A stretch of 41,791 bases of DNA, from IMG/VR virus record IMGVR_UViG_3300025645_000021, positions 1 to 41,791 of that record. The stretch is one strand, 5' to 3'. This DNA is from a virus. A program made the translations under genes and the position numbers. The notes under the pieces are model-generated. The model did not search any database and was not told the origin of the DNA. It saw only the letters and a program-made list of their open reading frames with translations. Position 1 is the stretch's first letter. Every line of letters begins with the position of its first letter. Positions 23,282 to 41,791 of the stretch are shown here, in pieces.

Positions 23282-23681
23282 CCTTAGCTTCTCTCATAAT
23301 CTCTTCTGGAGAGTTTCTTAAGGTAGTAAGTTGATCTAACTTAACTGCTATCTTAGAAAGCATCTGAGACACAAATACCTGTTGTTCTTGAGCTGTAATC
23401 ATCTCATTATTAAGTACGATGTTTAAACAATGCCATATAGCTACACTAGACTTTTCATCAAGACGTAGTTTAAACATTACATCATCTCTGGCCTCTTTAC
23501 CTTTTAACTTTTGTTGCTTCGCTACCTTAGTCATTACTTCCATTAGGTAGGCAACATCTGCCGGCTCTGGTATCTCTTCACCAATAACCATATTGATACA
23601 TTTAATAGTAGCGTAGAGGTGGTGGTTACAAATATCATCAACGGTGATAATTGCAGTTACGTTATTTTCCGACTTCGTCAT
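23256..23681 (-). CDS. Hypothetical early protein at distal end of leftward arm
   Basis: 141 residues, helical, no cysteine motif (scattered Cys at ~18, 29, 85). It begins TKSENNVTAIITVDDICNHH and has a helical C-terminal half with Gln/Leu repeats (EQQVFVSQMLSKIAVKLDQL). No family recognised. It overlaps the HTH gene upstream by 20 bases and carries two GTTTAAAC copies 47 bases apart (23421, 23468). Confidence 0.55.
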   Translation of the reverse strand: MTKSENNVTAIITVDDICNHHLYATIKCINMVIGEEIPEPADVAYLMEVMTKVAKQQKLKGKEARDDVMFKLRLDEKSSVAIWHCLNIVLNNEMITAQEQQVFVSQMLSKIAVKLDQLTTLRNSPEEIMREAKASPLQLVE

Positions 23682-27642: not shown

Positions 27643-27815
27643 TTCTTAGATATCTCTCGGAAACACTCTTTACAGAACTCATCCGTTGCTTCAAATCCAG
27701 TGGTAAATCCTCGGTACATTATTAAAGTAGGGAAAGCAACTAGTACCCCCAGAATAACTGGGAGTATAGATAGAACCACCACCATTCCTACTAATACATA
27801 ATTAATTAATTTCAT
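27639..27815 (-). CDS. Small membrane protein between polymerase and helicase
   Basis: 58 residues: hydrophobic ~1-33 (MKLINYVLVGMVVVLSILPV, then ILGVLVAFPTLIM) followed by a soluble tail with two cysteines (EFCKECFREISKK, a CxxC pair). Start and stop are ATGA and GTGA overlaps with both neighbours, so it is clearly translated. A membrane protein in a replication operon could link replication to the membrane or affect host functions; this is inference. Confidence 0.7.
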   Translation of the reverse strand: MKLINYVLVGMVVVLSILPVILGVLVAFPTLIMYRGFTTGFEATDEFCKECFREISKK

Positions 27816-29863
27816 ATCTCATCCTCGTTATATGTTTCGGGTACGAAGTACCGTTTAAACTGTTCGTATTCTCTCTTCGATCTTCCGTCTATATAAACTT
27901 GTTGTCTCTTGAGAACGGCTTTCCCGAAGGTGAGGATTTTCTCTTCTCTAGGAAAATCTCCACTCCACAAAGCTCCATCCAAGCCAACAGAAGCCAAAGG
28001 CTTAATGTCAGCATCAAAAAAATAACGGAAAGCTTCATCCATACATTCGGCAAGAGAAGACACAGCACTATCGTACTTATCACTATTGCACTCGATATAA
28101 ATAGCATCATGCAAAGTGAGGATAACTTTAAGACCTCTGTCCTGAGCAAGTCCAACCGCTCTACGCATAATACTACTTCCGAATCCCTGTAAAGGGACGT
28201 TTGCCACTGATCTTGCATTTCGATTGTCTCCCCACATGTACCAACCGCAAGGCAGCTTCATGTGTTTATCTCGTTTATATTGTGCCGCTAAGTTCATACT
28301 CCATCGGTAATATGTTCTATAGGCTTTATTAAATTTATCTACTAACCTCTGCGCTTCATCTTCATCTACCTTTCTTCCTAAATCGGCTGTCAATTTGTTA
28401 GATAGTCCGTACTTAGTCATTCCGTAAGAAATACCAAGGGTAGTTGATTTAAACATGTCCCTTATCTCTTCATGGTCCTTTCTCTCCCCGTCCATTGGGA
28501 CGGCTCCGGCCAACTTAGCCAGATGGAGGTATGGGTCCCCAGACTGATATGCTTGCAACATGTTTCTATCCCCTGAGAGGAGAGCTGCAAGTAAGAACTC
28601 TTGGGATTTAAAGTCAATGCCACAAACGGCTTTCCCTTTAGGGGGTACACAGAGACTTCGCATCCAAGCAGATTTAAGGAAAAGGAATCCCGTAGCCTTA
28701 GGCTGACTTCTAGCTGACTGAGCCCCATAGATTCCAAAATATGGTCTAACTCTTCCATCCGAACCAACAGAATCCCAGAAGGAGTTTTTAGATGTAGGCG
28801 AAAATCCGTTAAGATTTTGCTTAAGTGTGAGATAGCGCACCATTTGTGCTCCGAGGTTATCCTTTGGATAGTCATGTTTGAAATCAAAGTATTTCTTGAA
28901 GGCATCAAGGGATAGAGAATCCATCTTCGTATCTGTCTTAAGCCAATGTTTAAACGGGAGGGTTTTAATCCATTCTCTCGTCCTAACGTGCGACCAACTA
29001 AACGTTCTGTCCTTCTTCTTAGTGAAAGGTTTAATGTCCGGAAACAACTCATTAATCTCATTTTGAATCTCCCAAAGGATAGAAGGAACCGATCTTGAAA
29101 AGGCTTTAGTCTCTTCTAGTCCTATCGGGTAACCTTCCGACTCCATTACGGCAGTTCTTGCCGCATACTCTCCACGTAAAAGCATCTCTTCCTTAAGTGT
29201 TTTAAGTAGGGGTCCCTTCCTTAACAATCGTATGTACTCTTTCTTCTCGGCTTCTAGTAGCAGTGGAAGGTAGGCAATATCTGACTCATTATAGGCAAGT
29301 ATGTCTGCCTTATTCTCTTCAATCAAAGCATAGTCACCACTAATGATGATATCTCTAGTGTGGTCTTTGAAATCAGTATCTATCTGCTTACCGAGTAGTT
29401 TAAACGTACCAGCCGCTAGGTTATGTTGAGGCTTAGAGAAGTTAAACTTCATCTTATCTTGCTCAGTCATATCCCACTTATTCATAGGTGGCTTAGTTTT
29501 CTTAACTCGCCCATCAATAAGCTGACTTCCGTACATTAATTTATGGTTGTGATTAGTAAGGCATCTATACTCTAAAAATAAGTCGTAAAATTTGCACTTA
29601 ATCGGGTCTATGCCAAGAGCTAGAAAGCATCTTGCTTCAGCAGTTACAGCCCAAGCAACAAATATGTACCCTTCCCTTATAAGAATATTTATGTGGCCTC
29701 GTAGTTTATTTCTCTCTACTAGATCATCATGTAACCAATAAGATATTCCTTCTTGTAGGTTTTCGTCTTTAGTAGTCGTTAAAGAACAACTTACTAGGGT
29801 AGGGTGTTTCTCCTTCGAGTCAAAGAACTCGAAGTCGATAAAACAATATTTCTTTCCGCTCAT
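27812..29863 (-). CDS. Family A DNA polymerase with 3'-5' exonuclease domain
   Basis: 683 residues. Exonuclease (DEDDy): D10-x-E12 (FIDFEFFD), and Y-x-x-x-D195 (AYNESD). Polymerase: motif A D417 (CGIDFKSQEF, the DYSQIELR position), motif B R468-x3-K472-x7-Y480 (RDMFKSTTLGISYG), motif C H585-D586 (LTLHDAIYIEC). Between them lies GAQSARSQP (~380). The catalytic residues are conserved, but motif C has Ala where bacterial Pol I has Glu (HDE). Length is near T7 gp5. It would be the replicative polymerase, with the SF3 helicase upstream. GTTTAAAC copies at 27853, 28948 and 29398. Confidence 0.95.
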   Translation of the reverse strand: MSGKKYCFIDFEFFDSKEKHPTLVSCSLTTTKDENLQEGISYWLHDDLVERNKLRGHINILIREGYIFVAWAVTAEARCFLALGIDPIKCKFYDLFLEYRCLTNHNHKLMYGSQLIDGRVKKTKPPMNKWDMTEQDKMKFNFSKPQHNLAAGTFKLLGKQIDTDFKDHTRDIIISGDYALIEENKADILAYNESDIAYLPLLLEAEKKEYIRLLRKGPLLKTLKEEMLLRGEYAARTAVMESEGYPIGLEETKAFSRSVPSILWEIQNEINELFPDIKPFTKKKDRTFSWSHVRTREWIKTLPFKHWLKTDTKMDSLSLDAFKKYFDFKHDYPKDNLGAQMVRYLTLKQNLNGFSPTSKNSFWDSVGSDGRVRPYFGIYGAQSARSQPKATGFLFLKSAWMRSLCVPPKGKAVCGIDFKSQEFLLAALLSGDRNMLQAYQSGDPYLHLAKLAGAVPMDGERKDHEEIRDMFKSTTLGISYGMTKYGLSNKLTADLGRKVDEDEAQRLVDKFNKAYRTYYRWSMNLAAQYKRDKHMKLPCGWYMWGDNRNARSVANVPLQGFGSSIMRRAVGLAQDRGLKVILTLHDAIYIECNSDKYDSAVSSLAECMDEAFRYFFDADIKPLASVGLDGALWSGDFPREEKILTFGKAVLKRQQVYIDGRSKREYEQFKRYFVPETYNEDEI

Positions 29864-29877
29864 TTTAGTCCTGTTAG

Positions 29878-30567
29878 TTACTGTTTAGTTTTCTTTGCCC
29901 ATGTTGTGTGTATTGCTTTGGTCAACACTAGCACATATTTATCTTCACTTTCAAATATTAAAATAGATTCTTTTGTTCTGTATCCGGCAAAGCAAGGTTC
30001 TACTAATGCAGAAATAATTCCCTTACCATTACAAGCGTTTAACATTCCACTACCGCCATGTTTAGAACTGATAGTTTTTACCCCATCATCTCCACGCTCA
30101 ACAAAACCATATTCTTCATTAAGGATGTCCGTAAACACATCACCAAACTCATTGTCCTCTTTAGTAGAAGTTCTAGTTACTAATACCTCAACTCCCTTAG
30201 CTCCTTCTTGAGCATCATTGAAATGCAATAGAACGGCATGAGTACAGCCTTTACCTTTAAGCTCTTTAGCTACTGATGAACATTCATGTCTATAGCCACC
30301 AGACCTAGGACGAAATACGATCACAGACCTTATATTTAATTCGTTTAAACGTGCTTGCACCTTATTCGCTATCCTGCTGTTAAAGGTCCACTCTTGTTCG
30401 CCAAGATAGTTTCTAGCTCCCTTGTCCCTTTCATTGTGTCCAACAACTAAACCTACAACGGGCCTTACGTAACCCTCTTCGCTTAGATCAGGTATCGGTG
30501 TTTCAACAACTACCGGCTTAGTCTCCTTCTTCTTAAATATTCTCTTAATCCATCTCCATAATCTCAT
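29878..30567 (-). CDS. N-acetylmuramoyl-L-alanine amidase (Amidase_3-type endolysin)
   Basis: 229 residues. Zn-binding pattern: H44 (LVVGHNERDKG), Glu57/59 (LGEQEW), H115 (VLLHFND), and a catalytic Glu190 (ALVEPCFAG), the order of amidase_3 enzymes, which cut the amide bond between MurNAc and L-Ala. The N-terminus is very basic and aromatic (MRLWRWIKRIFKKKE), with no signal peptide; it may bind membranes. Unlike most phages, this endolysin is in the early leftward operon, not with the spanins. AAGGAG precedes the ATG. Confidence 0.85.
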   Translation of the reverse strand: MRLWRWIKRIFKKKETKPVVVETPIPDLSEEGYVRPVVGLVVGHNERDKGARNYLGEQEWTFNSRIANKVQARLNELNIRSVIVFRPRSGGYRHECSSVAKELKGKGCTHAVLLHFNDAQEGAKGVEVLVTRTSTKEDNEFGDVFTDILNEEYGFVERGDDGVKTISSKHGGSGMLNACNGKGIISALVEPCFAGYRTKESILIFESEDKYVLVLTKAIHTTWAKKTKQ

Positions 30568-31508: not shown

Positions 31509-33004
31509 ATGTCCAACTCATCTAGGTCAATCTCTTCTAAGGCCTCCGGCCTATAGTAGTCAGAGGGTTTAAACGACTTAGTTTTATTGTTAGCCTTCCC
31601 TACGATTGACTTATCCTTATATTGGAATGTTTCGATGAAATGCTTGAATGAACTCCAAGACGGAACTCCCTGCCTATTGGTCTTGTCCTCTTTCCAATCA
31701 TAGCAGAGCTCTTTGAACTCATAGGTATCTGCTTCTCTATTAAGAACTCTCTCCACAACCATTCTATTGAAGCCGTTTAAACTCTCTACTACGTCCTTCC
31801 AGAATGTTCCACCCTTGTAACAAAGATCATAATTATGTGGGTTATGTCTTGATTTATGGAGAACGTAATGTCCTAGGTGAGCAAGAAACTCTAATTGCTT
31901 AGGTCCTAACTTATCCTCTGACATAGCAAGAGTATCAAGAAAGTTTCTTTCCTTAGGTGTAAAATGATCGTTCATCTTTTCGTGTGTAAGATCAACTTGC
32001 ACGACTCTTCTCTCATCATATTCTACGTGAAACTTATCAGAAGGATTTGAGCAAAGGATATAAGAAGCAAATTGCTCCTCACTTTCCTTAGTCTGCTTAT
32101 GCTTCTCATTATATGTTACCATAGTATTGATTAGCTTCTTTCTTAACTTGTTGCCATCAAAAGAACCTATTTCAGTATCATCATCAATACCTACTACTCG
32201 TTTGTTCTTGAGATCAGCATTAAAATCGGATACAACTCCATTAAGAGCTAGATAATAGTCACCTACTACGGCCATCATGGTCTTCATAAAGATAGTCTTA
32301 CCGTTACCTCTATTCCCACGAAGGACTAGAAAGGAATGGTGTCTACCTGTCATGGCATGGCAAAGCCAAGAAAGAACTGCCTTTCTATCTGCTTCGAGAG
32401 GAATAAGGTAAAGGAAAAACCTTTCAAACAACTCTGGTGCAGATACTAACCATTCTTCCTTGGCATCTGGAAACTCCCTTCTCCATGAAGGGGGTCTATA
32501 TGTATTTAGATAAGTTAAGCTAAGCCCGTACTTTTCGCCCTTCTCCATATATTCAGCAGAATAGGCATCGTACTTGACTGTAGCTATTGGCATGGAAAGC
32601 ATAAGTTTTTTACGCTCGTCCTTCTTAAGTCTGTTAATTAAAATTAGTGGGTCTAGGTCACTGACTATTTCTCTCTCACTCTTATTAAAGATCAGTATCT
32701 CCTTAATTGTCCTAGCGTTTTGAAATAGAATGTTTTGCTCCATAAAGCCATCAAGGTCTTTCTTAGCTTCACCGTCTACTTCTACTTCGGTATTCTTGGG
32801 CTTAATCTTTGGAAGTATCTTCTCAGCTAGTTCAATGTATTTAGACCTTGGCAAGGTGTTTAAACCCTCTTCTGCCACTAACTTAGGGAAGCATACTTGT
32901 ATCCCTTCGTTCTTGAACTTATTGATCGAAACCCTGTCATGTCCACAAAAGATGAAGTTTGAGGACTTACTCATTCGACTCGCTAGTTTATCTACTGGTG
33001 TCAT
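31505..33004 (-). CDS. SF3/D5-like replicative DNA helicase (primase-helicase type)
   Basis: 499 residues. P-loop GNRGNGKT (230-237), Walker B GIDDDTE (~272-278), sensor/motif C ILCSNPSD (~316-323) and an arginine finger in ERRVVQVDL (~331-339) give the order of superfamily-3 helicases such as phage P4 and poxvirus D5-like proteins. The N-terminal ~190 residues show no primase motif that I can recognise; the protein may be helicase-only, or have a very diverged primase. It stands upstream of polymerase and likely unwinds the phage DNA. Contains GTTTAAAC at 31567, 31775 and 32858. Confidence 0.87.
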   Translation of the reverse strand: MTPVDKLASRMSKSSNFIFCGHDRVSINKFKNEGIQVCFPKLVAEEGLNTLPRSKYIELAEKILPKIKPKNTEVEVDGEAKKDLDGFMEQNILFQNARTIKEILIFNKSEREIVSDLDPLILINRLKKDERKKLMLSMPIATVKYDAYSAEYMEKGEKYGLSLTYLNTYRPPSWRREFPDAKEEWLVSAPELFERFFLYLIPLEADRKAVLSWLCHAMTGRHHSFLVLRGNRGNGKTIFMKTMMAVVGDYYLALNGVVSDFNADLKNKRVVGIDDDTEIGSFDGNKLRKKLINTMVTYNEKHKQTKESEEQFASYILCSNPSDKFHVEYDERRVVQVDLTHEKMNDHFTPKERNFLDTLAMSEDKLGPKQLEFLAHLGHYVLHKSRHNPHNYDLCYKGGTFWKDVVESLNGFNRMVVERVLNREADTYEFKELCYDWKEDKTNRQGVPSWSSFKHFIETFQYKDKSIVGKANNKTKSFKPSDYYRPEALEEIDLDELDI

Positions 33005-33287
33005 TGTCTTGCCCCTCAGTAGCCTTCATAAACTCCCTAAATCCTAGTACCAATAGTGCGCTGATAATCTCAGACCTAGCCCTCTCCCTTGTCGTGGAGT
33101 TCTCTAGCATCCTAAGTATCTTACCCATGGTTCCATCTATAGAAGCGGTTACTAGCACCTTCTTAGACTTAAACCTATCATCCATCCATCCATCCACATC
33201 AGGTTCTCCGATGTTCTCAAGTATGGTGATAATGTCCTCATTAGGTGACATAAATTCAAATTGTAATTCACTATTTAATTTTCTCAT
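32988..33287 (-). CDS. Hypothetical protein upstream of SF3 helicase
   Basis: 99 residues from ATG 33287 (TTG 33305 and GTG 33302 are in-frame alternatives; none has a strong ribosome site). An acidic middle (DVDGWMDDRF) is followed by a helical C-terminus (TTRERARSEIISALLVLGFR). No function recognised. It overlaps the helicase gene by 17 bases and is the first gene after the resolvase divergence, so its transcript may start in the 33288-33563 gap. Confidence 0.55.
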   Translation of the reverse strand: MRKLNSELQFEFMSPNEDIITILENIGEPDVDGWMDDRFKSKKVLVTASIDGTMGKILRMLENSTTRERARSEIISALLVLGFREFMKATEGQDNDTSR

Positions 33288-33563
33288 TCCGGTATTAAGC
33301 ACCAATGAAAAAGAGGAGTCAATTATTATTTTAAATTATTTTAAAGTATATTATAAAAGTGCACTATTTGTTTAAACGCTGTCATTGATAACACTGTGCG
33401 CTTTACTTTTCGTTACTTGGTTTTTATACTCTTGCTATATTCGCAAGAGCGGTGGTGTTGACGAGTACTCTTTTTATACTACTACTGAATACTTCTTCTG
33501 AACTAACAAAGTACCTTTTTGTTGCTAACGTCTGCGTTATATATTATTTGAGAGTGTTTAAAC
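33288..33563. promoter_or_regulatory. Divergent regulatory region between SF3-helicase operon and resolvase gene
   Basis: A ~276-base A/T-rich gap between leftward and rightward genes. It holds two GTTTAAAC copies (33370, 33556, the latter directly before the resolvase ATG). On the minus strand a TATAAT box is centred near 33353. A perfect 7-bp inverted repeat, CTCTTGC and GCAAGAG around a 7-base loop, spans 33429-33449, and the word TTTTTATACT occurs twice (33421 and 33471). On the plus strand TTGACG at 33458 has only a weak -10 (ACTACT). It is likely a divergent promoter/operator region, but no single promoter is certain. Confidence 0.55.
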
Positions 33564-33926
33564 ATGGCAAAGAAGAAAACTAAATCACAACAGGGTAAAG
33601 CTTCAAAGAATAAGGGCAAGGTGGGAGAACGTGAAGTTGTTCACCTGCTTAAAGACTTTGGTTATGATGCTCGACGAGGACAACAGTTTCAGGGAAGTCC
33701 TGATTCTCCTGATGTTATTGCAGAAGATTTCCATGATTGTCATATTGAAGTGAAGAGAACGGAAGCCTTGTCCGTTTATGCAGCAATGGAACAAGCTAAG
33801 TCCGATGCCTCTTCAGATCAAAGACCTATTTTATTTCACCGTAGAAGTTCTAAGGAATGGTTAGTTGTTATGGAAGCCAAGGAGTTTTTGAAGCTCCTTG
33901 ACTCGTTAATGATTGATTCTATCTAA
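33564..33926 (+). CDS. Holliday-junction resolvase-like nuclease (PD-(D/E)XK)
   Basis: 120 residues. A Lys-rich N-terminus (AKKKTKSQQGKASKNKGK) leads to GEREVVHLLKDFGY, then SPDVI with D50, and IEVKRTE with E62-x-K64. This is the E...D...ExK layout of archaeal Hjc-like resolvases and phage relatives. It would resolve branched DNA before packaging. It is the only rightward gene inside the early arm. GTTTAAAC ends one base before the ATG and replaces the usual spacer to a weak GAG ribosome site. Confidence 0.85.
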   Translation: MAKKKTKSQQGKASKNKGKVGEREVVHLLKDFGYDARRGQQFQGSPDSPDVIAEDFHDCHIEVKRTEALSVYAAMEQAKSDASSDQRPILFHRRSSKEWLVVMEAKEFLKLLDSLMIDSI

Positions 33927-33969
33927 AATTGGACTATGCCCGTCTTGATTAATACATACCAGACCACCG

Positions 33970-34004
33970 CAATTGGCACGAGAATCCAAGTTCTGTGCCA
34001 ATTG
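33970..34004. terminator. Inverted repeat between convergent genes (possible bidirectional terminator)
   Basis: CAATTGGCAC (33970-33979) pairs perfectly with GTGCCAATTG (33995-34004), with an inner AGAA/TTCT pair around a short loop. It lies 44 bases after the resolvase stop and 20 bases beyond the end of the opposed gene at 34024. No T-run follows immediately, so termination efficiency is uncertain; a protein site is also possible. Confidence 0.5.
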
Positions 34005-34023
34005 ATGTATCTATATGGTTTTC

Positions 34024-34314
34024 TCATTTGGATGTCTCTAAGGTGGTGTTGCGGGTCCATTTAGTAAATTGCCCTACCTCTTCCCCTAATGCTACTGCGT
34101 GCATTATGTTAGCCTCGAATGAATCTACTGACTTAGCTAGCTTTTCAAGTCTCTCTTCTAACTCGTTTAAACAATCTAATAGTCCGTCTCTAGTACTATC
34201 TAACTCATGGCGTAGATCGTCCCAACCAATCTCACAATTTAGCATTTTATCCCTATCCACTAATTTGATTGCCTCTTCTAAATCTTTTAATACTTCAAAT
34301 TTTCCTGTACTCAT
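34024..34314 (-). CDS. Hypothetical helical early protein
   Basis: 96 residues from ATG 34314 (AAGGA seven bases upstream; the frame extends to 34347 across a hairpin). All-helical pattern (GKFEVLKDLEEAIKLVDRDK, then LNELEERLEKLAKSVDSFEA) with coiled-coil spacing. GTTTAAAC at 34165. No family recognised. Overlapped by no other gene; the ends are bracketed by hairpins at 33970 and 34335. Confidence 0.55.
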   Translation of the reverse strand: MSTGKFEVLKDLEEAIKLVDRDKMLNCEIGWDDLRHELDSTRDGLLDCLNELEERLEKLAKSVDSFEANIMHAVALGEEVGQFTKWTRNTTLETSK

Positions 34315-34334
34315 ATTGCTTTCCTTATTGTTTG

Positions 34335-34374
34335 AACCTAGAATCAAATTAGCCTTCTAGGTTATTCATTTTTT
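34335..34374 (+). terminator. Perfect 9-bp hairpin, possible antisense terminator
   Basis: AACCTAGAA (34335-34343) pairs exactly with TTCTAGGTT (34355-34363) around an 11-base loop; TTTTTT follows at 34369-34374 on the plus strand. In this direction it would stop rightward transcription that runs past the resolvase gene against the early operon. On the leftward transcript it lies in the leader of the gene at 34314. Confidence 0.5.
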
Positions 34375-34388
34375 CTTGCCTCGTTTAG

Positions 34389-34422
34389 CCCTAGTAAGCT
34401 TAAATTACTTGCTAGGGTTTTT
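34389..34422 (+). terminator. Second hairpin with T-run, rightward terminator candidate
   Basis: CCCTAGTAAG (34389-34398) pairs with CTTGCTAGGG (34408-34417) with one G-T pair, followed directly by TTTTT (34418-34422). It overlaps the stop codon of the leftward gene at 34405. Together with the hairpin at 34335 it forms a tandem barrier facing transcription from the resolvase side. Confidence 0.65.
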
Positions 34423-34647
34423 CTTTCTTAGCTGTTCAATGTATTCCTGCCACTCACTCTTTTGATCGTATGTCATTGTCACGGAACCTCTAGCCGCCTT
34501 TAACTCTTCTATTCTTTTGTCTACTTGTTGTGGACAATAACGTTTAAACGCCTTGTCGTCATACCGCTCAATATTTGTGTAGCCTCGTTCCCTTATCGCT
34601 AGAAGGTGAGGTAAGCTTAAGTATTTACTCGGGTTGTGTATCATCAT
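34405..34647 (-). CDS. Hypothetical small early protein
   Basis: 80 residues (79 if the second ATG at 34644 is used), basic, helical (SLPHLLAIRERGYTNIERYD, then QVDKRIEELKAARGSVTMTY). A GGGAGGGGGA purine run precedes the ATG. The start overlaps the stop of the Cys-rich gene upstream. Contains GTTTAAAC at 34542. No function assigned. Confidence 0.55.
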   Translation of the reverse strand: MMIHNPSKYLSLPHLLAIRERGYTNIERYDDKAFKRYCPQQVDKRIEELKAARGSVTMTYDQKSEWQEYIEQLRKKNPSK

Positions 34648-34778
34648 TCCCCCTCCCTTTTCTCAGCACATGCGTTACATATGTCTACTTGTTCCCCTTC
34701 TACTATCGCTCGATATAGCTCCGTATCTGTTCCGCAATCACAACAGATTATTCTACAAAGAGTATCTACATCACTCAT
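34644..34778 (-). CDS. Small zinc-ribbon-like protein
   Basis: 44 residues with cysteine pairs CCDC (residues ~12-15) and CNAC (~34-37), spaced as in a small zinc ribbon or knuckle: two CxxC-type knuckles about 19 residues apart. Start and stop overlap both neighbours (TAATG and ATGA), which argues that it is translated. Such mini-proteins often bind a host protein or nucleic acid. No specific family recognised. Confidence 0.6.
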   Translation of the reverse strand: MSDVDTLCRIICCDCGTDTELYRAIVEGEQVDICNACAEKREGE

Positions 34779-35083
34779 TATGATGCCTCTTCTTGGCTTT
34801 CGAACTCCCATTGTGCGCTCTTGTAATCGCTAGGAGAGTAGTAGAGCTCCTCATTTTCTTCTGTATCTTTGAACCTATGCCAAGAATACTCACCATCAGC
34901 CCAATTATTACAGCCTTCTTTGAAGTCTACGCTCTCCATATCAAACTGCGCTTCTAGTCCTGCGGGTAGGTTTTCTAGTGTTTCCTCATGTATTGATTCT
35001 AGGAAATTTAAGTAAGCGTTGCTTACCTCGTCATCATTTAGTCCGTTGTAGTCTTCTCTTAAGATTTGATCTAGTGTTCTCAT
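34778..35083 (-). CDS. Acidic hypothetical early protein
   Basis: 101 residues from ATG 35083 (AGAGG six bases upstream). Strongly acidic (DDEVSNAYLNFLESIHEETL, then SPSDYKSAQWEFESQEEAS) with several Trp/Tyr near the end. Acidic early proteins of this size sometimes mimic DNA or inhibit host enzymes; nothing specific can be concluded. Stop and start overlaps couple it with neighbours. Confidence 0.55.
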   Translation of the reverse strand: MRTLDQILREDYNGLNDDEVSNAYLNFLESIHEETLENLPAGLEAQFDMESVDFKEGCNNWADGEYSWHRFKDTEENEELYYSPSDYKSAQWEFESQEEAS

Positions 35084-35235
35084 TAATGCCTCTCTTTTAC
35101 GTGGTTGGTTGTGGTGGTAATGATATGGTTCCACCCTATTCTTATGCGCAAATGTGCGCCTTCTTGTTTAATTACTTGTCCATTTACTAGCTTACCGAAG
35201 TATTCAAGGTGGACTATCTTTCCGACTATGCTCAT
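35083..35235 (-). CDS. Small hypothetical early protein
   Basis: 50 residues (SIVGKIVHLEYFGKLVNGQV, then HLRIRIGWNHI), a beta-type mini domain with a His/Thr-rich end. GGGAG eight bases before the ATG. The start overlaps the preceding stop as ATGA, and the stop overlaps the next start as TAATG. Confidence 0.55.
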   Translation of the reverse strand: MSIVGKIVHLEYFGKLVNGQVIKQEGAHLRIRIGWNHIITTTTNHVKERH

Positions 35236-35498
35236 GCTGCTAACTCCCTTTGTATGTATTCAATACATAACTCATGTAATTGTCCTAGGTGCTCATCTAG
35301 TGAAAAACAGTCATCCCACTCCACTGATAAGTTTTCTTTATCTATGTGAAGAAAACCAATGTTCGCTGCGCCACCTGCTTCTAAGCCTTCACTTGTTCCG
35401 TTGATATGAAAGATATGAAATCCTCCCTCACTGTCCTCTATTTCAAATATTGCTAGGTTTTTCATGTCTTTAAATGCGTTGAATAGTTCGTTTTTCAT
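35232..35498 (-). CDS. Hypothetical early protein
   Basis: 88 residues, alternating beta and turn (NLAIFEIEDSEGGFHIFHIN, then IGFLHIDKENLSVEWDD) and a helical end. Preceded by AAGGAAATAACA directly before the ATG, the ribosome-site block shared with other genes of this arm. No family recognised. Confidence 0.55.
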   Translation of the reverse strand: MKNELFNAFKDMKNLAIFEIEDSEGGFHIFHINGTSEGLEAGGAANIGFLHIDKENLSVEWDDCFSLDEHLGQLHELCIEYIQRELAA

Positions 35499-35526
35499 TG
35501 TTATTTCCTTTGCCCTTGTCGGGCGG

Positions 35527-35772
35527 TTATTTACTTTGGATACTTAAAAAGCTTTCTTGTAAAAAACCATTAAAACCTTTTACGCTTAAGTCCATATTGC
35601 TACTTAAAACGCAGTCATTCTTACTTGTCTTAAGTCTTTGTATCCAAGTGTTATAGCCTTTAATAGCTACCTGCTCTCCTGATATAGTCACAAAGAGGGT
35701 AAACCATTTATTTTTATTAGCTTTCCTTTCTTTGTTTACTTCCTTAATTGCAAACTCTATTTCCTGATTCAT
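35527..35772 (-). CDS. Hypothetical early protein
   Basis: 81 residues from ATG 35772 (AAGGGA five bases upstream; the longer frame to 35895 runs into the SprT gene). Basic N-terminus (NQEIEFAIKEVNKERKANKN) then beta strands (WFTLFVTISGEQVAIKGYNT). A GTTTAAAC lies 31 bases upstream of the start at 35803. Confidence 0.55.
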   Translation of the reverse strand: MNQEIEFAIKEVNKERKANKNKWFTLFVTISGEQVAIKGYNTWIQRLKTSKNDCVLSSNMDLSVKGFNGFLQESFLSIQSK

Positions 35773-35816
35773 GCTATTCCCTTTGCCCTCAATTATGAGG
35801 GCGTTTAAACGTTTAG

Positions 35817-36425
35817 TTATTTTGTTTTTGGCGGTACTATTGTCATTGTCTTTTGACAACAAGGGCATATTGGAGCTCCATATTCTTCTAGCCACTTATT
35901 ACTTAATCTTGCTGCGTATTCGGTAGCTTCACATATTGTCTTTAACATTCTAGTTGATTGCTTCTTTTTACCGCCTTCACTAGGTGAAAAGGTAGGGTGA
36001 GGATAAGCACCGATAAGATCAATTATTGCGTTTAGCTTTTCTTTAAGTTCATCTGATGCAATTGTGGCGGTCATTTTACCAGTTAATCCAATTGCTAACG
36101 CCATCTTACGGAAATTCTTTCCGTGACCTTCTTCTGTTCCAAGGATAGCGTGAATCATTTCATGAGCTACTACGTCTAAAACTCTATTGCCATCATCCAT
36201 TGTTGGAGTAAGGAAAATATGTGACTTTCTATCTCCACTTACTTTTTCAGACCAACACTCACCTAATGTGGTTCTCTTAGCTGTCCCACGTCCGGTACTT
36301 GGAAAACCTACAGATATGTGGACTTGAGGAAACTTATGTTCCCCTAATACCTTGTCAGTGAATAATTCAGTTTTCATCATTTGAAGTGAATCTTGTAACC
36401 ATTGTTCCCTTGTCATTGTCGTCAT
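35817..36425 (-). CDS. SprT-like zinc metalloprotease
   Basis: 202 residues. HEMIH (88-92) is the HExxH zinc site and H101 (EEGHGKNF) is a third ligand. C187 and C190 (CPCC) near the end resemble the zinc ribbon that follows SprT domains. SprT/Spartan proteins cleave proteins, in eukaryotes those crosslinked to DNA; phage members are uncharacterised. Expressed first after promoter 36463-36492, so among the earliest proteins made. Preceded by AAGGAAATAACATG. Confidence 0.85.
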   Translation of the reverse strand: MTTMTREQWLQDSLQMMKTELFTDKVLGEHKFPQVHISVGFPSTGRGTAKRTTLGECWSEKVSGDRKSHIFLTPTMDDGNRVLDVVAHEMIHAILGTEEGHGKNFRKMALAIGLTGKMTATIASDELKEKLNAIIDLIGAYPHPTFSPSEGGKKKQSTRMLKTICEATEYAARLSNKWLEEYGAPICPCCQKTMTIVPPKTK

Positions 36426-36462
36426 GTTATTTCCTTTGTTTTGTTGTTAATTAGTTAACGCT

Positions 36463-36492
36463 TTTATAATATAGGTGTTTAAACTATGTCAA
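36463..36492 (-). promoter_or_regulatory. Early leftward promoter P2 with GTTTAAAC in spacer
   Basis: Minus strand: TTGACA (36492-36487), 18-base spacer, TATAAA (36468-36463), a near-consensus sigma70-like promoter 38 bases upstream of the SprT gene. The spacer contains GTTTAAAC (36477-36484). A 25-base identical block is shared with P1 at 37138-37167. A regulator bound to the palindrome would sit between -35 and -10. Confidence 0.78.
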
Positions 36493-36520
36493 CACCTATA
36501 CTAAAAAAAGTTAAATTATC

Positions 36521-36763
36521 TTATTCGTCACTTTCTCCCATGTGATATATAGAGACTACACCATGTTCATCAGCTAACATTTCTATCAACCCTAGATGAT
36601 CTGCTACCTTTAAGTAGGTGAAAGTTATACAGCTACCCCACTCTTTAGTTACTTCAAGTATCTCTGTTAAGTGAGATAAGGAAATACTGTTATCTGAAAT
36701 AGCCAATACTAGATTAGCCACAATTCTTGCGTTTGTTCTTTCTTCTTGCGTGTAAACTCTCAT
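36521..36763 (-). CDS. Hypothetical early protein
   Basis: 80 residues, mostly helical (ERTNARIVANLVLAISDNSI), then a winged-helix-like spacing (LSHLTEILEVTKEWGSCITF, TYLKVADHLGLIEM) that might be a small DNA- or protein-binding fold. Start preceded by AAGGAATAACATG. Lies between P1 and P2, so it is transcribed from P1. No family confirmed. Confidence 0.5.
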   Translation of the reverse strand: MRVYTQEERTNARIVANLVLAISDNSISLSHLTEILEVTKEWGSCITFTYLKVADHLGLIEMLADEHGVVSIYHMGESDE

Positions 36764-36801
36764 GTTATTCCTTTGTTATGTGGCGTTAATTGCCCTTTAT
36801 C

Positions 36802-36833
36802 AGATAGAACAAGGTATTAACCTTATCCTATCT
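36802..36833. terminator. Inverted repeat between two early genes
   Basis: AGATAG and CTATCT (36802-36807 and 36828-36833) enclose a second pair, AAGGT and ACCTT, giving a two-step hairpin with small internal bulges. It lies in the 81-base gap between the genes at 36763 and 36845. No T-run follows. It could attenuate P1 transcription, protect mRNA or bind a protein. Confidence 0.4.
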
Positions 36834-36844
36834 ATAAATGATAA

Positions 36845-37099
36845 TTACTTTATTTCTAAGCTTACTAGCCCTTTACCTTCAGAGGATAGTCTATTGATCA
36901 GGTGGTTAAAGTTAGACTTTAATTCTTGAAGATATTCTATTTCCTTAGCGTATGAAAAAGCCTTCGCATTATAATCCGTATCATGTGACAAGGTGGCAGA
37001 TACTAGGTGGTTTTTTCTAGTAGAGCTTTCCGAGTTTAGAAGGTTAGATATTGTGGTTAATTCTTTTCTTGAGAGGCTAATAGTTCTTTGTGTTGTCAT
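36845..37099 (-). CDS. First gene of leftward arm, hypothetical
   Basis: 84 residues, Ser/Thr/Asn-rich and helical (SLSRKELTTISNLLNSESST, then EYLQELKSNFNHLINRLSSE). It is the first gene after P1, preceded by AAAGGAAATAACATG. First-transcribed small phage proteins often act on the host, but no motif supports a specific role. Confidence 0.55.
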   Translation of the reverse strand: MTTQRTISLSRKELTTISNLLNSESSTRKNHLVSATLSHDTDYNAKAFSYAKEIEYLQELKSNFNHLINRLSSEGKGLVSLEIK

Positions 37100-37137
37100 G
37101 TTATTTCCTTTGTTAGTTTGTTTAAAGTCTTAATAAG

Positions 37138-37167
37138 CTTATAGAATAGGTGTTTAAACTATGTCAA
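37138..37167 (-). promoter_or_regulatory. Early leftward promoter P1 with GTTTAAAC in spacer
   Basis: Minus strand: TTGACA (37167-37162), 18-base spacer, TATAAG (37143-37138). The spacer contains GTTTAAAC (37152-37159). P1 shares a 25-base identical block with P2 but has a different -10 downstream, so the shared part is -35 plus the palindrome plus its flanks. It would drive the whole leftward arm. Confidence 0.78.
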
Positions 37168-37184
37168 CACTATTGAATATATAA

Positions 37185-37212
37185 TTGAGTTTTTATCTTA
37201 TTAGTGTATATT
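37185..37212 (+). promoter_or_regulatory. Putative rightward promoter for terminase/virion arm
   Basis: TTGAGT (37185-37190), 16-base spacer, TATATT (37207-37212), 33 bases upstream of the terS ATG. Divergent from P1 with only ~18 bases between the -35 boxes, so the two promoters probably interfere with or are controlled by the same factors. GTTTAAAC (37152) is close to both. Confidence 0.55.
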
Positions 37213-37244
37213 TATATAGTGAGCTGCGTTATAAGGGGTTTTTG

Positions 37245-37751
37245 ATGGCTAATATTATTGATAAGGATGCGTGCAAGGTACGATTATTGGACCGATTTAG
37301 TGAAGGTTTAAATCCTACCCATGCTTGTCGTTTGTGTGGTGTTAGTTATGGTACTTATATCTCGATGCGGAAAAAGGATAAGGTTTGGGCTAGTCGTGTC
37401 GATTCGATTAGGTCTGAATATAAATCAGAACGTATTGAGGTTTTACTTGAGAAGTTAGCTGAAGGTCATGATCAGATTGAGGAGTCATCAACGTGGACAG
37501 AAGAGAATGAACTTGGCGAAAAGATATTAAAGACTAGAAAGGTAAAGAAGTTACCGCCAAATGATAGAGCTATAATGATGCTCGCTAAGAAGTATGCCAA
37601 GGAATATACCAGTACCGAGATTAATGTTAATCATGAGATTGGTATTACTATAAAGGATAGGGCATTAACTGTAGAGGAGCGCATGCGTATCCTTCAAGAT
37701 GATAAAGAAGAAGGGCAAGCCATTGATATCATTGAATATACAGAGGTGTAG
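37245..37751 (+). CDS. terS: Terminase small subunit
   Basis: 168 residues from ATG 37245, with AAGGGG six bases upstream. The N-terminal third (LDRFSEGLNPTHACRLCGVS then YGTYISMRKKDKVW) is a helix-turn-helix DNA-binding domain. A charged helical middle follows (SERIEVLLEKLAEGHDQIEE), then a C-terminal part with EKILKTRKVKKLPPNDRAIM. This is the arrangement of phage small terminases, which recognise the packaging site. It precedes terL by ~570 bases with two small ORFs and direct repeats between. Confidence 0.8.
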   Translation: MANIIDKDACKVRLLDRFSEGLNPTHACRLCGVSYGTYISMRKKDKVWASRVDSIRSEYKSERIEVLLEKLAEGHDQIEESSTWTEENELGEKILKTRKVKKLPPNDRAIMMLAKKYAKEYTSTEINVNHEIGITIKDRALTVEERMRILQDDKEEGQAIDIIEYTEV

Positions 37752-37992
37752 TGTTTAAACGGTGGTGCTAAGCTGCTGAAATTATTGAGAGCTTGTTTAA
37801 ACTTGTTGATTTTAACCCCCCCTACATGGATACAATAGATGGTTCTTGTTTGTAGCCCACTTAGAAAAATTTTTCATATTTTTACAGAAAATTCGACTTT
37901 TCACTTACCCCCACATAAATTTTTCATATTTTTACAGAAAATTCGACTTTTCCATCCTCTCGCCCCTTAAAATTTTATGTTAAAATAATCCC
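37752..37992 (+). promoter_or_regulatory. Intergenic region with repeats, candidate packaging or promoter site
   Basis: 241 bases between terS and the next ORF. It has two GTTTAAAC copies 42 bases apart (37753, 37795), a run of seven C (37816-37822), and a perfect 36-base direct repeat offset by exactly 50 bases (37867-37902 and 37917-37952). The spacer between repeats is only 14 bases and holds a C-run too. No clear promoter or hairpin with T-run is seen. The position next to terS makes it a candidate cos/pac site. Confidence 0.5.
37867..37952 (+). repeat. Tandem 36-bp direct repeat, 50-bp period
   Basis: Copies at 37867-37902 and 37917-37952 are identical. Each contains TTTTCATATTTTTACAG and ends in AAAATTCGACTTTTC. 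The gap is 14 bases. Exact repeats of this size with a regular period near terminase genes suggest iterated protein-binding sites (terminase or promoter factor). No other copy was seen in the window. Confidence 0.85.
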
Positions 37993-38145
37993 ATGAATAA
38001 TTACAAGCTTGTCTATGACAGAAAATCAGGTAAAGATAAGAGAGTGTATTTGAAGAGTCGTGAGTGTATAGCTTGTTGCAAGCAATTTAGGCAAAAGCCT
38101 AAGTATAATCATAAGGAGTGTCCGAAGTGTCGAAAGAAGAAGTAA
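37993..38145 (+). CDS. Small zinc-ribbon-like protein between terS and terL
   Basis: 50 residues: basic (YKLVYDRKSGKDKRVYLKSR), then two cysteine pairs, CIACC (near 25-29) and CPKC (near 43-46), about 17 residues apart, as in a zinc ribbon. The last codons overlap the following ORF. Too short for a catalytic enzyme; perhaps a DNA- or terminase-binding protein. No family recognised. Confidence 0.6.
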   Translation: MNNYKLVYDRKSGKDKRVYLKSRECIACCKQFRQKPKYNHKECPKCRKKK

Positions 38146-38273
38146 AGAAATCAGAGAAGAAAGCCCCTAAGAAGGAATCTAAACCTAAAGCTGCGCCTAA
38201 GAAGGAAGCTAAGGAAAAGGTATTCCTAGGTAAATGTACTGAAACAGGTAAAGACCTATTCAAGGAACTTTAA
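38127..38273 (+). CDS. Small Lys/Pro/Ala-rich protein upstream of terL
   Basis: 48 residues from GTG 38127 (AAGGAG eight bases upstream). Low-complexity Lys/Pro/Ala/Glu (EKKAPKKESKPKAAPKKEAK), ending in a folded-looking tail (VFLGKCTETGKDLFKEL). It overlaps the zinc-ribbon ORF by 19 bases. In the frame of terL its 3' end is open, so its last 22 bases overlap the 5' extension of the large terminase frame. Confidence 0.6.
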   Translation: MSKEEVKKSEKKAPKKESKPKAAPKKEAKEKVFLGKCTETGKDLFKEL

Positions 38274-38323
38274 CTCCAGAACAGGAACAGGCACTAATAT
38301 ATGAATCGAATCTAATAGAGGAT

Positions 38324-39850
38324 TTGAGTCTATGTTGGCAGCCTCACCCTGTTCAGGCGAAGATAAAGAACAGCTTATTCTCGCAAGGAAAGAAGAAGAT
38401 ATTTGTAGAGTGTGGACGGAAGTTCGGTAAGACGGATTTCCTTATCTTCATTCTGTACCGAATTGCGCTTAGTCAGCCCAACTCGGCTTGCTACTATATA
38501 TCCCCTCTTCAGAAACAGGCAAAGGAATTGATTTGGGCTAATAATAGGCTCCAACTATTCTTCTTGCCTAAAGTAGACCCTAAAACTGGGCTTACTCCTA
38601 CCGGCCATAATCAACAAGAAGCCTTCAAAATCTATGAGGAATTGAAGGAGCGATATATGGCGGGAGAACCCAATAACACTGAAATGCGTATTAAGTTCAA
38701 GAATGGCTCTTTCATTAAGTTGGATGGGAGTGACCAATATGAATCTTATCGTGGAATCAACCCTCATGCCATAGCTTATGATGAGTTTAAAGATCATCAT
38801 CCTAGATTCCATGTGGGTATGGACCCTAACTTAGCCACATTTAATGCCCCACTTATTGTGGTTGGTACACCTCCAGTAGGAGAGGATGATAATGGGGACC
38901 AATTTACGGAGTTAGCTGACTTCTGCATGAAGGACCCTGAATCAGAACACATACATAGCACTCCATATGATAATCCGTACATTTCAAATGAGTGGTTAGA
39001 TAAGAAGAAAGCAGAACTCTATTCAAGGGGTAAAGAGGATGAATGGCTTATTGAGTATATGGCCCAAAGGATTAAGTCAGGTTCGAGAAGCATTTTTCCT
39101 ATGTTTGATGGTCCTAGTTTTCTTCCCAGTATGGATATGCCTACTATTGATGAAGATAAGCCTGTGCACACTGTTCACTATCGCCCTTACTCTGAGTGTT
39201 GGGAGAAAGTAACCAAATACCATAAGGATTGGGACTATTTCATGGCCTTTGACCCTGCTAGTGCCAGTACATTTGCGGTTATTTTTGGTGCGATTAATAG
39301 AAAGAGTAAAGAGGTAGTACTCCTTAATGAGATATACGAGAAGTCTAAGATGAAGATGACTTCTAAGAGGATATTCAGCCGAGCGATGGCTATGGCTGAT
39401 GGATTCCCAGTCCTTATCGAAGATATTCGAATGATTTATGATACTGCGGCTACTTGGTTCCAGAATGAGGTTAATGACCAATTTGGGTACAATTTAGAGC
39501 CGGCAATGAAGGATATTAACCGTAAATCTAATAACGAGAAGGAAAACCGTTTAAACCTTATTAAGGATATGCTGTTTGATGGCTATTTAATCCTATCAGA
39601 TCAATGTCCTTGTATGGCGTGGGAAATTGCGAATCATAGAACTGATGAACATGGTAGAATCCCTAAGGAAGACGATCACCTTCTGGATGCTTTCCGCTAC
39701 GGTTTAGCTAACCACCACTACAACTCGATTCCTCCGAAAAGATTGCCTACTGACCTAAATAAGCGTTACCATACCATTGAGTCAGATATGAAACGAGATA
39801 GAACGAATAACTCACCCTTTGAGCGGGTACTAGGAGAGTATTATGAATGA
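38324..39850 (+). CDS. terL: Terminase large subunit (packaging ATPase/nuclease)
   Basis: 508 residues from TTG 38324. Walker A GRKFGKT (31-37), Walker B AIAYDE (149-154), and a coupling GTPP (~181). The C-terminal nuclease has D310 (FMAFDPAS), D367 (IEDIR) and a DDHLLDAFRYG near the end (~470), the three acidic groups of RNase-H-like terminase nucleases. It would pump DNA into the prohead and cut it. The start is uncertain: the TTG has AGAGGA immediately next to it, too close for a ribosome site, and the frame stays open upstream to 38252 without ATG/GTG/TTG (reading TPEQEQALIYESN). Confidence 0.9.
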   Translation: MSLCWQPHPVQAKIKNSLFSQGKKKIFVECGRKFGKTDFLIFILYRIALSQPNSACYYISPLQKQAKELIWANNRLQLFFLPKVDPKTGLTPTGHNQQEAFKIYEELKERYMAGEPNNTEMRIKFKNGSFIKLDGSDQYESYRGINPHAIAYDEFKDHHPRFHVGMDPNLATFNAPLIVVGTPPVGEDDNGDQFTELADFCMKDPESEHIHSTPYDNPYISNEWLDKKKAELYSRGKEDEWLIEYMAQRIKSGSRSIFPMFDGPSFLPSMDMPTIDEDKPVHTVHYRPYSECWEKVTKYHKDWDYFMAFDPASASTFAVIFGAINRKSKEVVLLNEIYEKSKMKMTSKRIFSRAMAMADGFPVLIEDIRMIYDTAATWFQNEVNDQFGYNLEPAMKDINRKSNNEKENRLNLIKDMLFDGYLILSDQCPCMAWEIANHRTDEHGRIPKEDDHLLDAFRYGLANHHYNSIPPKRLPTDLNKRYHTIESDMKRDRTNNSPFERVLGEYYE

Positions 39851-40070
39851 ATTATCAATGGCTTTGAGCCTTTCAGCCTTTTTCTGTGCAGGAATCACAG
39901 TAGTGTTTTCTGTCCTAGCCTATGCTAAAGTAGTAGGAATGGAAAAGTCTACTCACCGTATTCAGCAGCAGTATGTCCCATTAGAAGAAGAATATATGGG
40001 TCCAACTGGTGAAGAATTGATGAAGAAGATGAATAAGGCCTTTTACCCCGAAGAGGATGGACAAGTATGA
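39843..40070 (+). CDS. Small membrane protein between terL and portal
   Basis: 75 residues, ATG overlapping the terL stop (eight bases). One hydrophobic segment near 6-32 (ALSLSAFFCAGITVVFSVLA) followed by a soluble acidic tail with KSTHRIQQQYVPLEEEY and MKKMNKAF. Function unknown; small membrane proteins at this place occur in several podoviruses. Overlaps the micro-ORF at 40067. Confidence 0.6.
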   Translation: MNELSMALSLSAFFCAGITVVFSVLAYAKVVGMEKSTHRIQQQYVPLEEEYMGPTGEELMKKMNKAFYPEEDGQV

Positions 40071-40138
40071 AATCAGCCAAGGTCGCTGCCCTAATCAAGC
40101 TAATTCAATCAGTTAAAAAAGGTAAAGAAAATGAGTAA
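40067..40138 (+). CDS. Micro-ORF coupled to portal
   Basis: 23 residues (ATG 40067, overlapping the previous stop; SAKVAALIKLIQSVKKGKEN). An amphipathic basic helix. The stop overlaps the portal ATG by eight bases. It may exist to couple translation to portal, or be a real peptide. Evidence is only position and overlap. Confidence 0.4.
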   Translation: MKSAKVAALIKLIQSVKKGKENE

Positions 40139-41791
40139 TATAGAATCCTTTGACGATTTTTATTCGACCGAGAACAATGCAACGGCATTAGAATTAAGTC
40201 CGTTTCAGTTTAGAGAGGATAAATCTAAAAAAGCTACTCTTGAGTGGTTATTTCAATGCTACGACAATATGGAGAAGAACGGATTAAGCCGTTTTATCAC
40301 TTATCGTCGTTATCAAGCCCTATATAAGGGACTTCATTGGCGTAATTATGATACTAGGGACGTAAATAGAGAGACTTCATCTTCTCAGCGTAAACCTAGA
40401 ATGGTTACGAACTTCGTACATGAGATGGTAGAGGCAAAAGTTGCCCAGATGGCCAGACTCAGAAGTTCTATTGCACTAATACCTAATAATAATGAGCAAT
40501 CAGACATTAATAATGCCAAAGCCTGTAAAATGCTTCTCGATGCTAGAGCATATGATCTACATATCGAAGAAGTTTATCAGAAAGCAGATCGAATCAAGTA
40601 CATATTCGGTCACTCATTCAAATTTGTAGAATGGGACAAGGATGCAGGACCTATTTCTCCTGCTTACAAGAAGGTTCAAGGAGGCAAGGATGCCAAAAAG
40701 AAGCTTAAAGAACTGGGCGGGGAGCCTATTCATATTGGCGATGTTACTGTTACTCCACTTGGTCCTGACAGAGTATTTGCTGAATTAGGCAAAGAAACTT
40801 GGGAAGAAAAGGACTACATAATTAAGCTAGAGTGGGTACATATTGAAGCTTTAAAGGTGATGTACCCTAAGCATAAGTCCGAGATAATGGAAAACAGAAG
40901 GAATCTGTATGACTATGAGACTTCAGAACTTACTCGCCCGATTGATATGGTCATGGTTAGAACTTTCTACCACAGAAAGACTAAGTATTTTCCAGAGGGT
41001 GCAATTATCAAGCATACAGATGATGTTATTCTGGAATGGAACGACTTTCACTATGAGCATGGAGAACTTCCATGCGTTCCAGACACTGATATTGATATTT
41101 ATGGAGAGTTCTGGGGAAGATCATTTATTACCCTCATTGAGCAAATGCAACGCATGCACAATAATATACAGTCAGGAATCGCACGAGACTATTCGATTGG
41201 TTCTGCACCGAAATGGATGGTCCCCAAGGGTGCTTGTGATTTCCACGACTTAAATAACGAATTTACGATTGTAGAGTATTCAGGGCCTCAGGCTCCGGTA
41301 CTCGTAGAGTCTCGCCCCACCTCTAACCAAGCGTTTGAGGTACAGGACAGACTAGAGAAATATATGTCTAAATCGAGCTCAGTTTACGATGTTAGTCGTG
41401 GTGAAGTTCCTACAGGCGTAACGGCAAATTCTGCCCTACGTTTCTTAGACGAGCAGGAATCTCAAAGGATTGTTGTTCAGGAAAGAAAGCGTAAAACTAC
41501 TGTAATTAAGGTTAGTAAGTTGATGCTATCTACGATGGCTCAATATTATAAGGCTTCTGATGGTAGAACAGTTCGTATTCTTGGTGAAAAGAACCAGATT
41601 GTTATCGAGGATATGAAGAAGGCTGATTTTGGTAAGATTTATGATGTTCGTATTCAGAACTCCCCTGCACTACCAGACAGTAAAGCAGGTAAAATCGCAG
41701 CCATAGTTGATTTAAACACAGCCACTCAGACAGACCCTATTTTCAGAAGAGAGCATGTTGTAGATATGCTCGATCTTGGTATGGATGAAGC
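40131..41791 (+). CDS. Portal protein, N-terminal part (continues at base 1)
   Basis: 690 residues in all (40131-41664 plus 1-539). The N-terminal region begins SNIESFDDFYSTENNATALE, then SRFITYRRYQALYKGLHWR. A conserved core has TNFVHEMVEAKVAQMARLRS (~115) and GEFWGRSFITLIEQMQRMHN (~335-355), followed by RGEVPTGVTANSALRFLDEQ (~425). A W/Y-containing start, the glycine-tryptophan-glycine turn before a long helix and the stem region are features of podovirus portals (P22-like, about 700 residues). It is the packaging channel. The gene is split only by the arbitrary contig cut. Confidence 0.9.
   Translation, partial: MSNIESFDDFYSTENNATALELSPFQFREDKSKKATLEWLFQCYDNMEKNGLSRFITYRRYQALYKGLHWRNYDTRDVNRETSSSQRKPRMVTNFVHEMVEAKVAQMARLRSSIALIPNNNEQSDINNAKACKMLLDARAYDLHIEEVYQKADRIKYIFGHSFKFVEWDKDAGPISPAYKKVQGGKDAKKKLKELGGEPIHIGDVTVTPLGPDRVFAELGKETWEEKDYIIKLEWVHIEALKVMYPKHKSEIMENRRNLYDYETSELTRPIDMVMVRTFYHRKTKYFPEGAIIKHTDDVILEWNDFHYEHGELPCVPDTDIDIYGEFWGRSFITLIEQMQRMHNNIQSGIARDYSIGSAPKWMVPKGACDFHDLNNEFTIVEYSGPQAPVLVESRPTSNQAFEVQDRLEKYMSKSSSVYDVSRGEVPTGVTANSALRFLDEQESQRIVVQERKRKTTVIKVSKLMLSTMAQYYKASDGRTVRILGEKNQIVIEDMKKADFGKIYDVRIQNSPALPDSKAGKIAAIVDLNTATQTDPIFRREHVVDMLDLGMDE
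41665..41791. repeat. Terminal overlap copy (right) of a circular assembly
   Basis: This is the second copy of the 127-base overlap described for bases 1-127. It lies within the portal coding sequence, in the same reading frame as the left copy, so removing either copy restores one intact gene. Confidence 0.93.

Follow-up and report, generated by a model that had tools for sequence, protein, structure and literature searches.

In mycobacteriophage L5, many dispersed operator copies, the stoperators, are bound by the phage repressor gp71, which controls its own promoter. A site between the -35 and -10 boxes is the classical position for repression. SprT/SPRTN-like proteases are DNA-dependent enzymes that lack sequence specificity and act mainly on crosslinked DNA. 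The window analyzed here, i.e. the whole stretch of 41,791 nucleotides of IMG/VR record IMGVR_UViG_3300025645_000021, is a 41.8-kb virus record with replication, terminase, tail and capsid genes. It resembles L5 in that dispersed copies of one site occur far above chance, the exact 8-letter palindrome GTTTAAAC being present 31 times as opposed to 0.99 expected copies, a number that shuffled sequences never approach, and in that a phage-encoded candidate binder is at hand that would control itself. The features around the two promoter-like elements P1 and P2 are:

36463–36492, minus strand: P1, TTGACA-TA-GTTTAAAC-ACCTATAT-TATAAA, promoter-like, 52 bp upstream of the SprT-like gene
P1 parts, minus strand: -35 box TTGACA at 36492–36487; TA; GTTTAAAC at 36484–36477; ACCTATAT; -10 box TATAAA at 36468–36463
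37138–37167, minus strand: P2, TTGACA-TA-GTTTAAAC-ACCTATTC-TATAAG, promoter-like, 53 bp upstream of the open reading frame at 36845–37099
P2 parts, minus strand: -35 box TTGACA at 37167–37162; TA; GTTTAAAC at 37159–37152; ACCTATTC; -10 box TATAAG at 37143–37138
36471–36495: 25-bp exact block ATAGGTGTTTAAACTATGTCAACAC, copy 1 (P1)
37146–37170: 25-bp exact block ATAGGTGTTTAAACTATGTCAACAC, copy 2 (P2)
36845–37099, minus strand: open reading frame of 84 residues without family match, first gene behind P2
36521–36763, minus strand: open reading frame of 80 residues without family match, between P2 and P1
35817–36425, minus strand: SprT-like metalloprotease-fold protein (HEMIH) with C-terminal zinc ribbon, 202 residues, phrog_6361/PF10263, gene behind P1, candidate GTTTAAAC binder
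35835–35975, minus strand: its C-terminal ribbon module, about residues 151–197, KKKQSTRMLKTIC...YAARLS...GAPICPCC, kept in protease-dead and ribbon-only relatives, candidate DNA-recognition module

Both elements are directed leftward, P1 towards the gene at 36425–35817 and P2 towards that at 37099–36845, and in both of them GTTTAAAC is placed between recognizable -35 and -10 boxes. The pattern TTGACA-N16..18-TATAA has just two matches on both strands of the 41.8 kb (0.19 expected), and these are P1 and P2. The 25-mer ATAGGTGTTTAAACTATGTCAACAC is present in two exact copies 675 bp apart where none is expected. The initial annotation had described TTGACA, the palindrome and TATAA(A/G) for both promoters, had located the palindrome between -35 and -10 and had noted an identical 25-base block, 675 bases apart and beside different genes; sequences and positions agree with all of this. 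Two details need correction: the palindrome follows TTGACA after two bases (TA) and not after three, and the 18 bases described as a spacer behind the palindrome make up the entire distance between -35 and -10, with the palindrome inside. A sigma-70 scanner applied to positions 33000–41791 predicted no more promoters than in shuffled sequences and missed P1 and P2 because it requires a final T. Neither an integrase nor a known repressor was detected among the searched open reading frames of the window. The DNA polymerase (27812–29863) has its sole strong named match in a phage of Silvanigrella aquatica (34%), whereas the closest matches of the SprT-like protein stem from Arthrobacter phages.

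All copies of GTTTAAAC in the window are listed here:

1224–1231: coding sequence; same site kept in the nearest relative L040
3533–3540: intergenic
8149–8156: coding sequence
12748–12755: coding sequence
15716–15723: coding sequence
15800–15807: coding sequence
17162–17169: coding sequence
20866–20873: coding sequence
22185–22192: coding sequence
23421–23428: coding sequence
23468–23475: coding sequence
24889–24896: coding sequence
25604–25611: coding sequence
27291–27298: coding sequence
27853–27860: DNA polymerase coding sequence
28948–28955: DNA polymerase coding sequence
29398–29405: DNA polymerase coding sequence
30343–30350: endolysin coding sequence
31567–31574: primase coding sequence
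31775–31782: primase coding sequence
32858–32865: primase coding sequence
33370–33377: intergenic
33556–33563: immediately 5' of the start codon of the open reading frame at 33564–33926 (resolvase-like)
34165–34172: outside every gene of the list used
34542–34549: coding sequence
35803–35810: just beyond the 3' end of the SprT-like gene, within the open reading frame at 35527–35895
36477–36484: P1 spacer
37152–37159: P2 spacer
37753–37760: after the small-terminase-like open reading frame
37795–37802: between terminase open reading frames
39549–39556: large terminase coding sequence

Enrichment essentially concerns the exact word: octamers one mismatch away show no excess when taken as a class (50 versus 45 expected), with a single pair, ATTTAAAC/GTTTAAAT, being somewhat raised (9 versus 2.5 expected). 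A pyrimidine is favoured before the palindrome and a purine after it. By the gene list used, 23 of the 31 copies reside within reading frames, in two frames, and non-coding positions are modestly over-used (7 versus 3.1 expected). Twenty-one copies fall into the 14.4 kb from 23.4 to 37.8 kb that harbour replication, early and small-terminase genes, while the capsid/tail part is sparser. Two explanations at the level of gene products were rejected. A role in RNA, with TTTAAAC as a slippery heptamer, is not compatible with sites in two frames, in genes of both strands and between genes. Conservation of a peptide fails as the cause, as the FK/LN residues are kept at these places in only 3 of 64 aligned relatives; the word thus alters the protein and not the reverse.

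Relatives of the window identified via terminase (37–53%) or capsid (51–74%) contain no or one GTTTAAAC copy per locus, and 30 relatives chosen by capsid or terminase together have 6 copies where 10.2 are expected. The nearest capsid relative, a 5.7-kb contig (L040, 79%), features two, one of them matching the window site at 1224. The SprT-like gene was not found in any of the window relatives. In one of them (L060) a different word, TATTAATA, is present in nine copies versus 1.6 expected, and other relatives of the window may have their own words. When 16 bases of the P1 block served as query, an unrelated contig (L031) was retrieved that contains 34 GTTTAAAC in 11.3 kb along with a WhiB-like gene. 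A scan for three close copies yielded at least 120 viral stretches, 93 of which, L031 included, have at least eight dispersed copies. A WhiB-like gene is present in many of these motif-dense contigs.

Homologues are widespread in the dense contigs for just one window protein, the SprT-like protein encoded at 35817–36425 (BLAST, 51 of 93 loci). When long contigs were selected by the motif only, the family was found encoded in 23 of 24 dense contigs and, searched with the same profile, in none of 24 controls, such that the result for the dense contigs doubles as a positive control for the negative outcome in controls and window relatives. Selection by the protein only led to 80 contigs with 373 copies of GTTTAAAC versus 13.1 expected (52 of the 80 enriched at P<1e-3), in contig sets that overlap in ancestry and with family-scan E-values that ignore kinship. 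For the 62 family-chosen contigs with a GC content below 0.6, the numbers are 370 versus 13.0, distributed over 57 contigs, corresponding to 28-fold enrichment; the runner-up among the 256 palindromic octamers reaches 1.9-fold in the same contigs. Redundancy is not the explanation, because 24 of 33 low-GC clusters remain enriched upon clustering at 90% protein identity, the other nine falling short of three copies. Among family members of high GC content, GTTTAAAC is essentially absent from Arthrobacter phages, from most Microbacterium and Streptomyces phages and from the 18 family contigs with a GC content of at least 0.6, showing that the family alone is not sufficient for the motif. A different palindrome, CTTGCGCAAG, noted upstream in Arthrobacter phages, is enriched in phages VResidence, YesChef and Caron (5, 3 and 4 copies versus 0.03–0.08 expected) and resides just upstream of the SprT-like gene (L298; records W02, W06 and W08); words close to it occur in Amyev, Tweety19 and Soondubu. 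Perhaps CTTGCGCAAG is the word read by high-GC members of the family, which we mention as a lead.

Five unrelated groups were compared, namely the window, Nanhaivirus (R26L, Pan1), the pair Arya/Persinger, a Magnetospira plasmid and the actinophage-like contigs, and the SprT-like family is the sole protein common to all of them. Another common gene as the linked factor was rejected, as none extends across the five lineages. In the complete named phages Pan1, R26L, Persinger, Arya and Soondubu, GTTTAAAC is the top palindrome, with 16 copies versus 0.02 expected in Pan1, 20 versus 0.02 in R26L, 4 versus 0.1 in Persinger, 7 versus 1 in Arya and 3 versus 0.14 in Soondubu. Each genomic TTTAAA in R26L and Pan1 (GC 0.63) belongs to a GTTTAAAC. 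Family matches comprise 163 phage and 70 plasmid records; on plasmids, 18 copies were counted on the 31-kb Magnetospira plasmid, five on pUT1 and two on pBSY17_4. On the sphingomonad plasmids pBSY17_4 (L467) and pUT1 (L468), GTTTAAAC occurs within the SprT-like gene. That the dispersed copies share one binding factor, as suggested in the initial annotation, gains support from the motif tracking one protein family. What had been overlooked is that many phages, and plasmids in some cases, feature this motif and that the factor is likely encoded by the very gene behind P1.

The window protein matches PF10263 with 35.7 bits (Pfam cut-off 25.6) and phrog_6361 with E=8.3e-45, and the zinc protease motif HExxH is present as HEMIH. 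An AlphaFold2 model (mean pLDDT 91) predicts a helical domain resembling metalloproteases and, at the C-terminus, a beta-beta-alpha ribbon that contains CPxC. A fold search of the PDB returned nothing at E<0.001; the ribbon bears a weak likeness to zinc ribbons of other proteins, and the N-terminal part a weak one to metzincins and to CapP. A PDB sequence profile search gave no relevant match, and NCBIfam and PADLOC gave none. HExxH is intact in all sampled named phages. It is absent from 30 of 40 family members from dense contigs, a few of which are partial or ribbon-only, and 16 of 26 non-redundant family clusters in dense contigs are full-length without it. The members lacking HExxH retain an N-terminal RExWL and a C-terminal KQxTRxxKxxC..Y..R.S...G.P.CPxC, and five long dense contigs feature a ribbon-only form. 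With the 50-residue ribbon as query, 31 contigs with stand-alone ribbons of about 55 residues were found that contain 564 GTTTAAAC versus 6.9 expected. By this pattern of retention and loss, GTTTAAAC accompanies the ribbon rather than the protease.

Among 15 complete or long replicons that belong to unrelated lineages, 12 have a site about 21–81 bp upstream of the family gene, where by our own arithmetic one or two of 15 replicons would be expected from site densities; R26L, G026 and G029 have no GTTTAAAC within 130 bp upstream. For stand-alone ribbon genes, sites mostly lie at about -59 and -110 from their own start. The initial interpretation is partly supported: the upstream location speaks for an operator in the promoter spacer, but a plain operator does not fit the 29 of 31 window copies outside P1 and P2, and the location of most copies in coding sequence is nothing that a simple promoter operator requires. 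In the protein-selected set (loci with at least three copies), an upstream excess is absent (5 versus 5.6 expected) and 71 copies are situated inside the family gene versus 20.7 expected. They occupy fixed places in the SprT-like gene (L379–L458), at nucleotides 30–59 (30 occurrences) and 270–299 (27), and contigs with these intragenic sites mostly lack an upstream one. Over the whole replicon, spacing is more regular than random in R26L (P<0.001), Pan1 (0.003) and the Magnetospira plasmid (0.017), and sites are clustered in most actinophage-like contigs. R26L (L459) and Pan1 (L460), members of one genus with roseobacter and cyanobacterium hosts, respectively, have matching sites before the primase and QueC genes.

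Our preferred reading, to which we assign a probability of roughly 0.7, is that GTTTAAAC would be the recognition site of the SprT-like protein at 35817–36425, contacted via its C-terminal ribbon, and that the protein would autoregulate through P1. It builds on motif enrichment, on linkage with the family across unrelated replicons, on a ribbon that outlives the protease and on a site at the family's own promoter; direct binding, dimer formation, repression, its timing and the function of the intragenic copies are what we infer from sequence. The zinc-ribbon module would recognize GTTTAAAC, probably as part of a dimer because the site is palindromic. Bound at P1, the protein should block RNA polymerase, and autoregulation is expected because GTTTAAAC sits between -35 and -10 of the protein's own promoter. 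Next upstream of this leftward block comes P2, which would probably be shut likewise. The remaining 29 copies, of which two thirds fall within the 14.4 kb, could damp early transcription as secondary operators or roadblocks and/or be landing pads keeping the protein, together with the protease domain in protease-active members, on the phage's own DNA. Protease-dead and ribbon-only forms favour the former; the latter agrees with sites being evenly spread in several replicons and with many members having an intact protease. Even distribution across the complete R26L, Pan1 and plasmid replicons suggests more than control of early genes. It is possible, and we propose it tentatively with a little less than even confidence, that these are parts of a widespread and as yet undescribed site-specific phage/plasmid system in which a zinc-ribbon module, either on its own or joined to a SprT-type protease that is active or dead, reads GTTTAAAC replicon-wide, marks self and concentrates protein or protease, promoter control being one of several outputs.

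Among other explanations, an unseen partner co-inherited with the SprT-like family could conceivably be the real factor. A further reading holds that the sites recruit a protease to self DNA, where it clears host proteins (silencers, defence or crosslinked proteins), with promoter control being secondary. We consider it unlikely, if not without appeal: phages and conjugative plasmids alike arrive in cells as foreign DNA, sites are evenly spread across whole R26L, Pan1 and the plasmid, and HExxH is intact in the window as well as in all sampled named phages, whereas the densest genomes have protease-dead or ribbon-only forms. An exact 8-bp palindrome without degenerate variants resembles an enzyme recognition site, and GTTTAAAC is the PmeI site; it could be a methyltransferase target or related to restriction, with the SprT-like protein as an antirestriction or other accessory protein. 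One copy of the family in a Bordetella phage is annotated as an antirestriction protein. Restriction, however, predicts depletion of sites, the opposite of the enrichment seen, a methyltransferase is absent from the matched window genes and from the proteins common to the compared lineages, and stand-alone ribbons without any catalytic domain accompany the densest site sets, all of which renders this idea highly improbable. We give very little credence to GTTTAAAC as a host-derived genomic signature or host-factor site that phages merely follow. The WhiB-like gene in many dense contigs does indicate probably related actinobacterial hosts. Still, GTTTAAAC is enriched in phages of Pseudanabaena, Dinoroseobacter, Pseudomonas and Enterobacter and on the Magnetospira plasmid, relatives of the window lack the enrichment, and when three close copies were sought in 84,980 species genomes, the 117 cellular stretches listed were local tandem repeats or short conserved spacings, none of them genome-wide. 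Hardly any weight can be placed on a centromere-like site set comparable to parS, bound by the SprT-like protein for partition or organisation, for which the regular spacing in several replicons would speak, as would the Sphingobium plasmids pBSY17_4 and pUT1, where the family gene immediately precedes that of a ParA-type or AAA ATPase, but these two plasmids have merely two and five sites, the carriers are mostly phages and ParA is not among the proteins common to the five groups.

In the open-access papers searched, we found no description linking GTTTAAAC or the SprT-like protein to iterated sites. Recognition of GTTTAAAC by the ribbon would provide a predicted ligand and function for a phage family so far called SprT-like or hypothetical, would connect a fold familiar from the repair of DNA-protein crosslinks with sequence-specific control in mobile DNA and would represent a natural example of a predicted DNA-binding tail outliving its protease. 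The link lends itself to a test with one protein of about 55 residues and one 8-bp site, and GTTTAAAC is a simple sequence marker by which carrier genomes can be spotted in metagenomes.

When compared with described systems, the L5 sites differ in being asymmetric, about 13 bp long, oriented with transcription and mostly intergenic, while GTTTAAAC is a perfect 8-bp palindrome and mostly intragenic; furthermore, the candidate factor is here a SprT-like/zinc-ribbon protein that is found in plasmids and in phages in which no integrase was seen. With HIP1 of cyanobacteria (GCGATCGC), GTTTAAAC shares the property of an exact 8-bp palindrome iterated in coding and non-coding DNA, but HIP1 is a trait of the host chromosome whereas GTTTAAAC tracks a phage/plasmid gene, with no iterated host among the listed cellular matches. 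Fold, HExxH and C-terminal zinc ribbon are shared with SprT/SPRTN-like metalloproteases (PF10263; phrog_6361), from which the proteins studied here are set apart by a ribbon that goes with one exact DNA word and is kept where the protease is missing. ParB/parS is similar with respect to palindromic sites, a replicon-encoded binder (a candidate here) and the adjacent ParA gene on a sphingomonad plasmid and is different with respect to the protein fold, the 8-bp site and the tens of sites present replicon-wide. Taken together, the predicted architecture appears to resemble dispersed-operator systems such as the L5 stoperators, with a real chance that it represents something more distinct.
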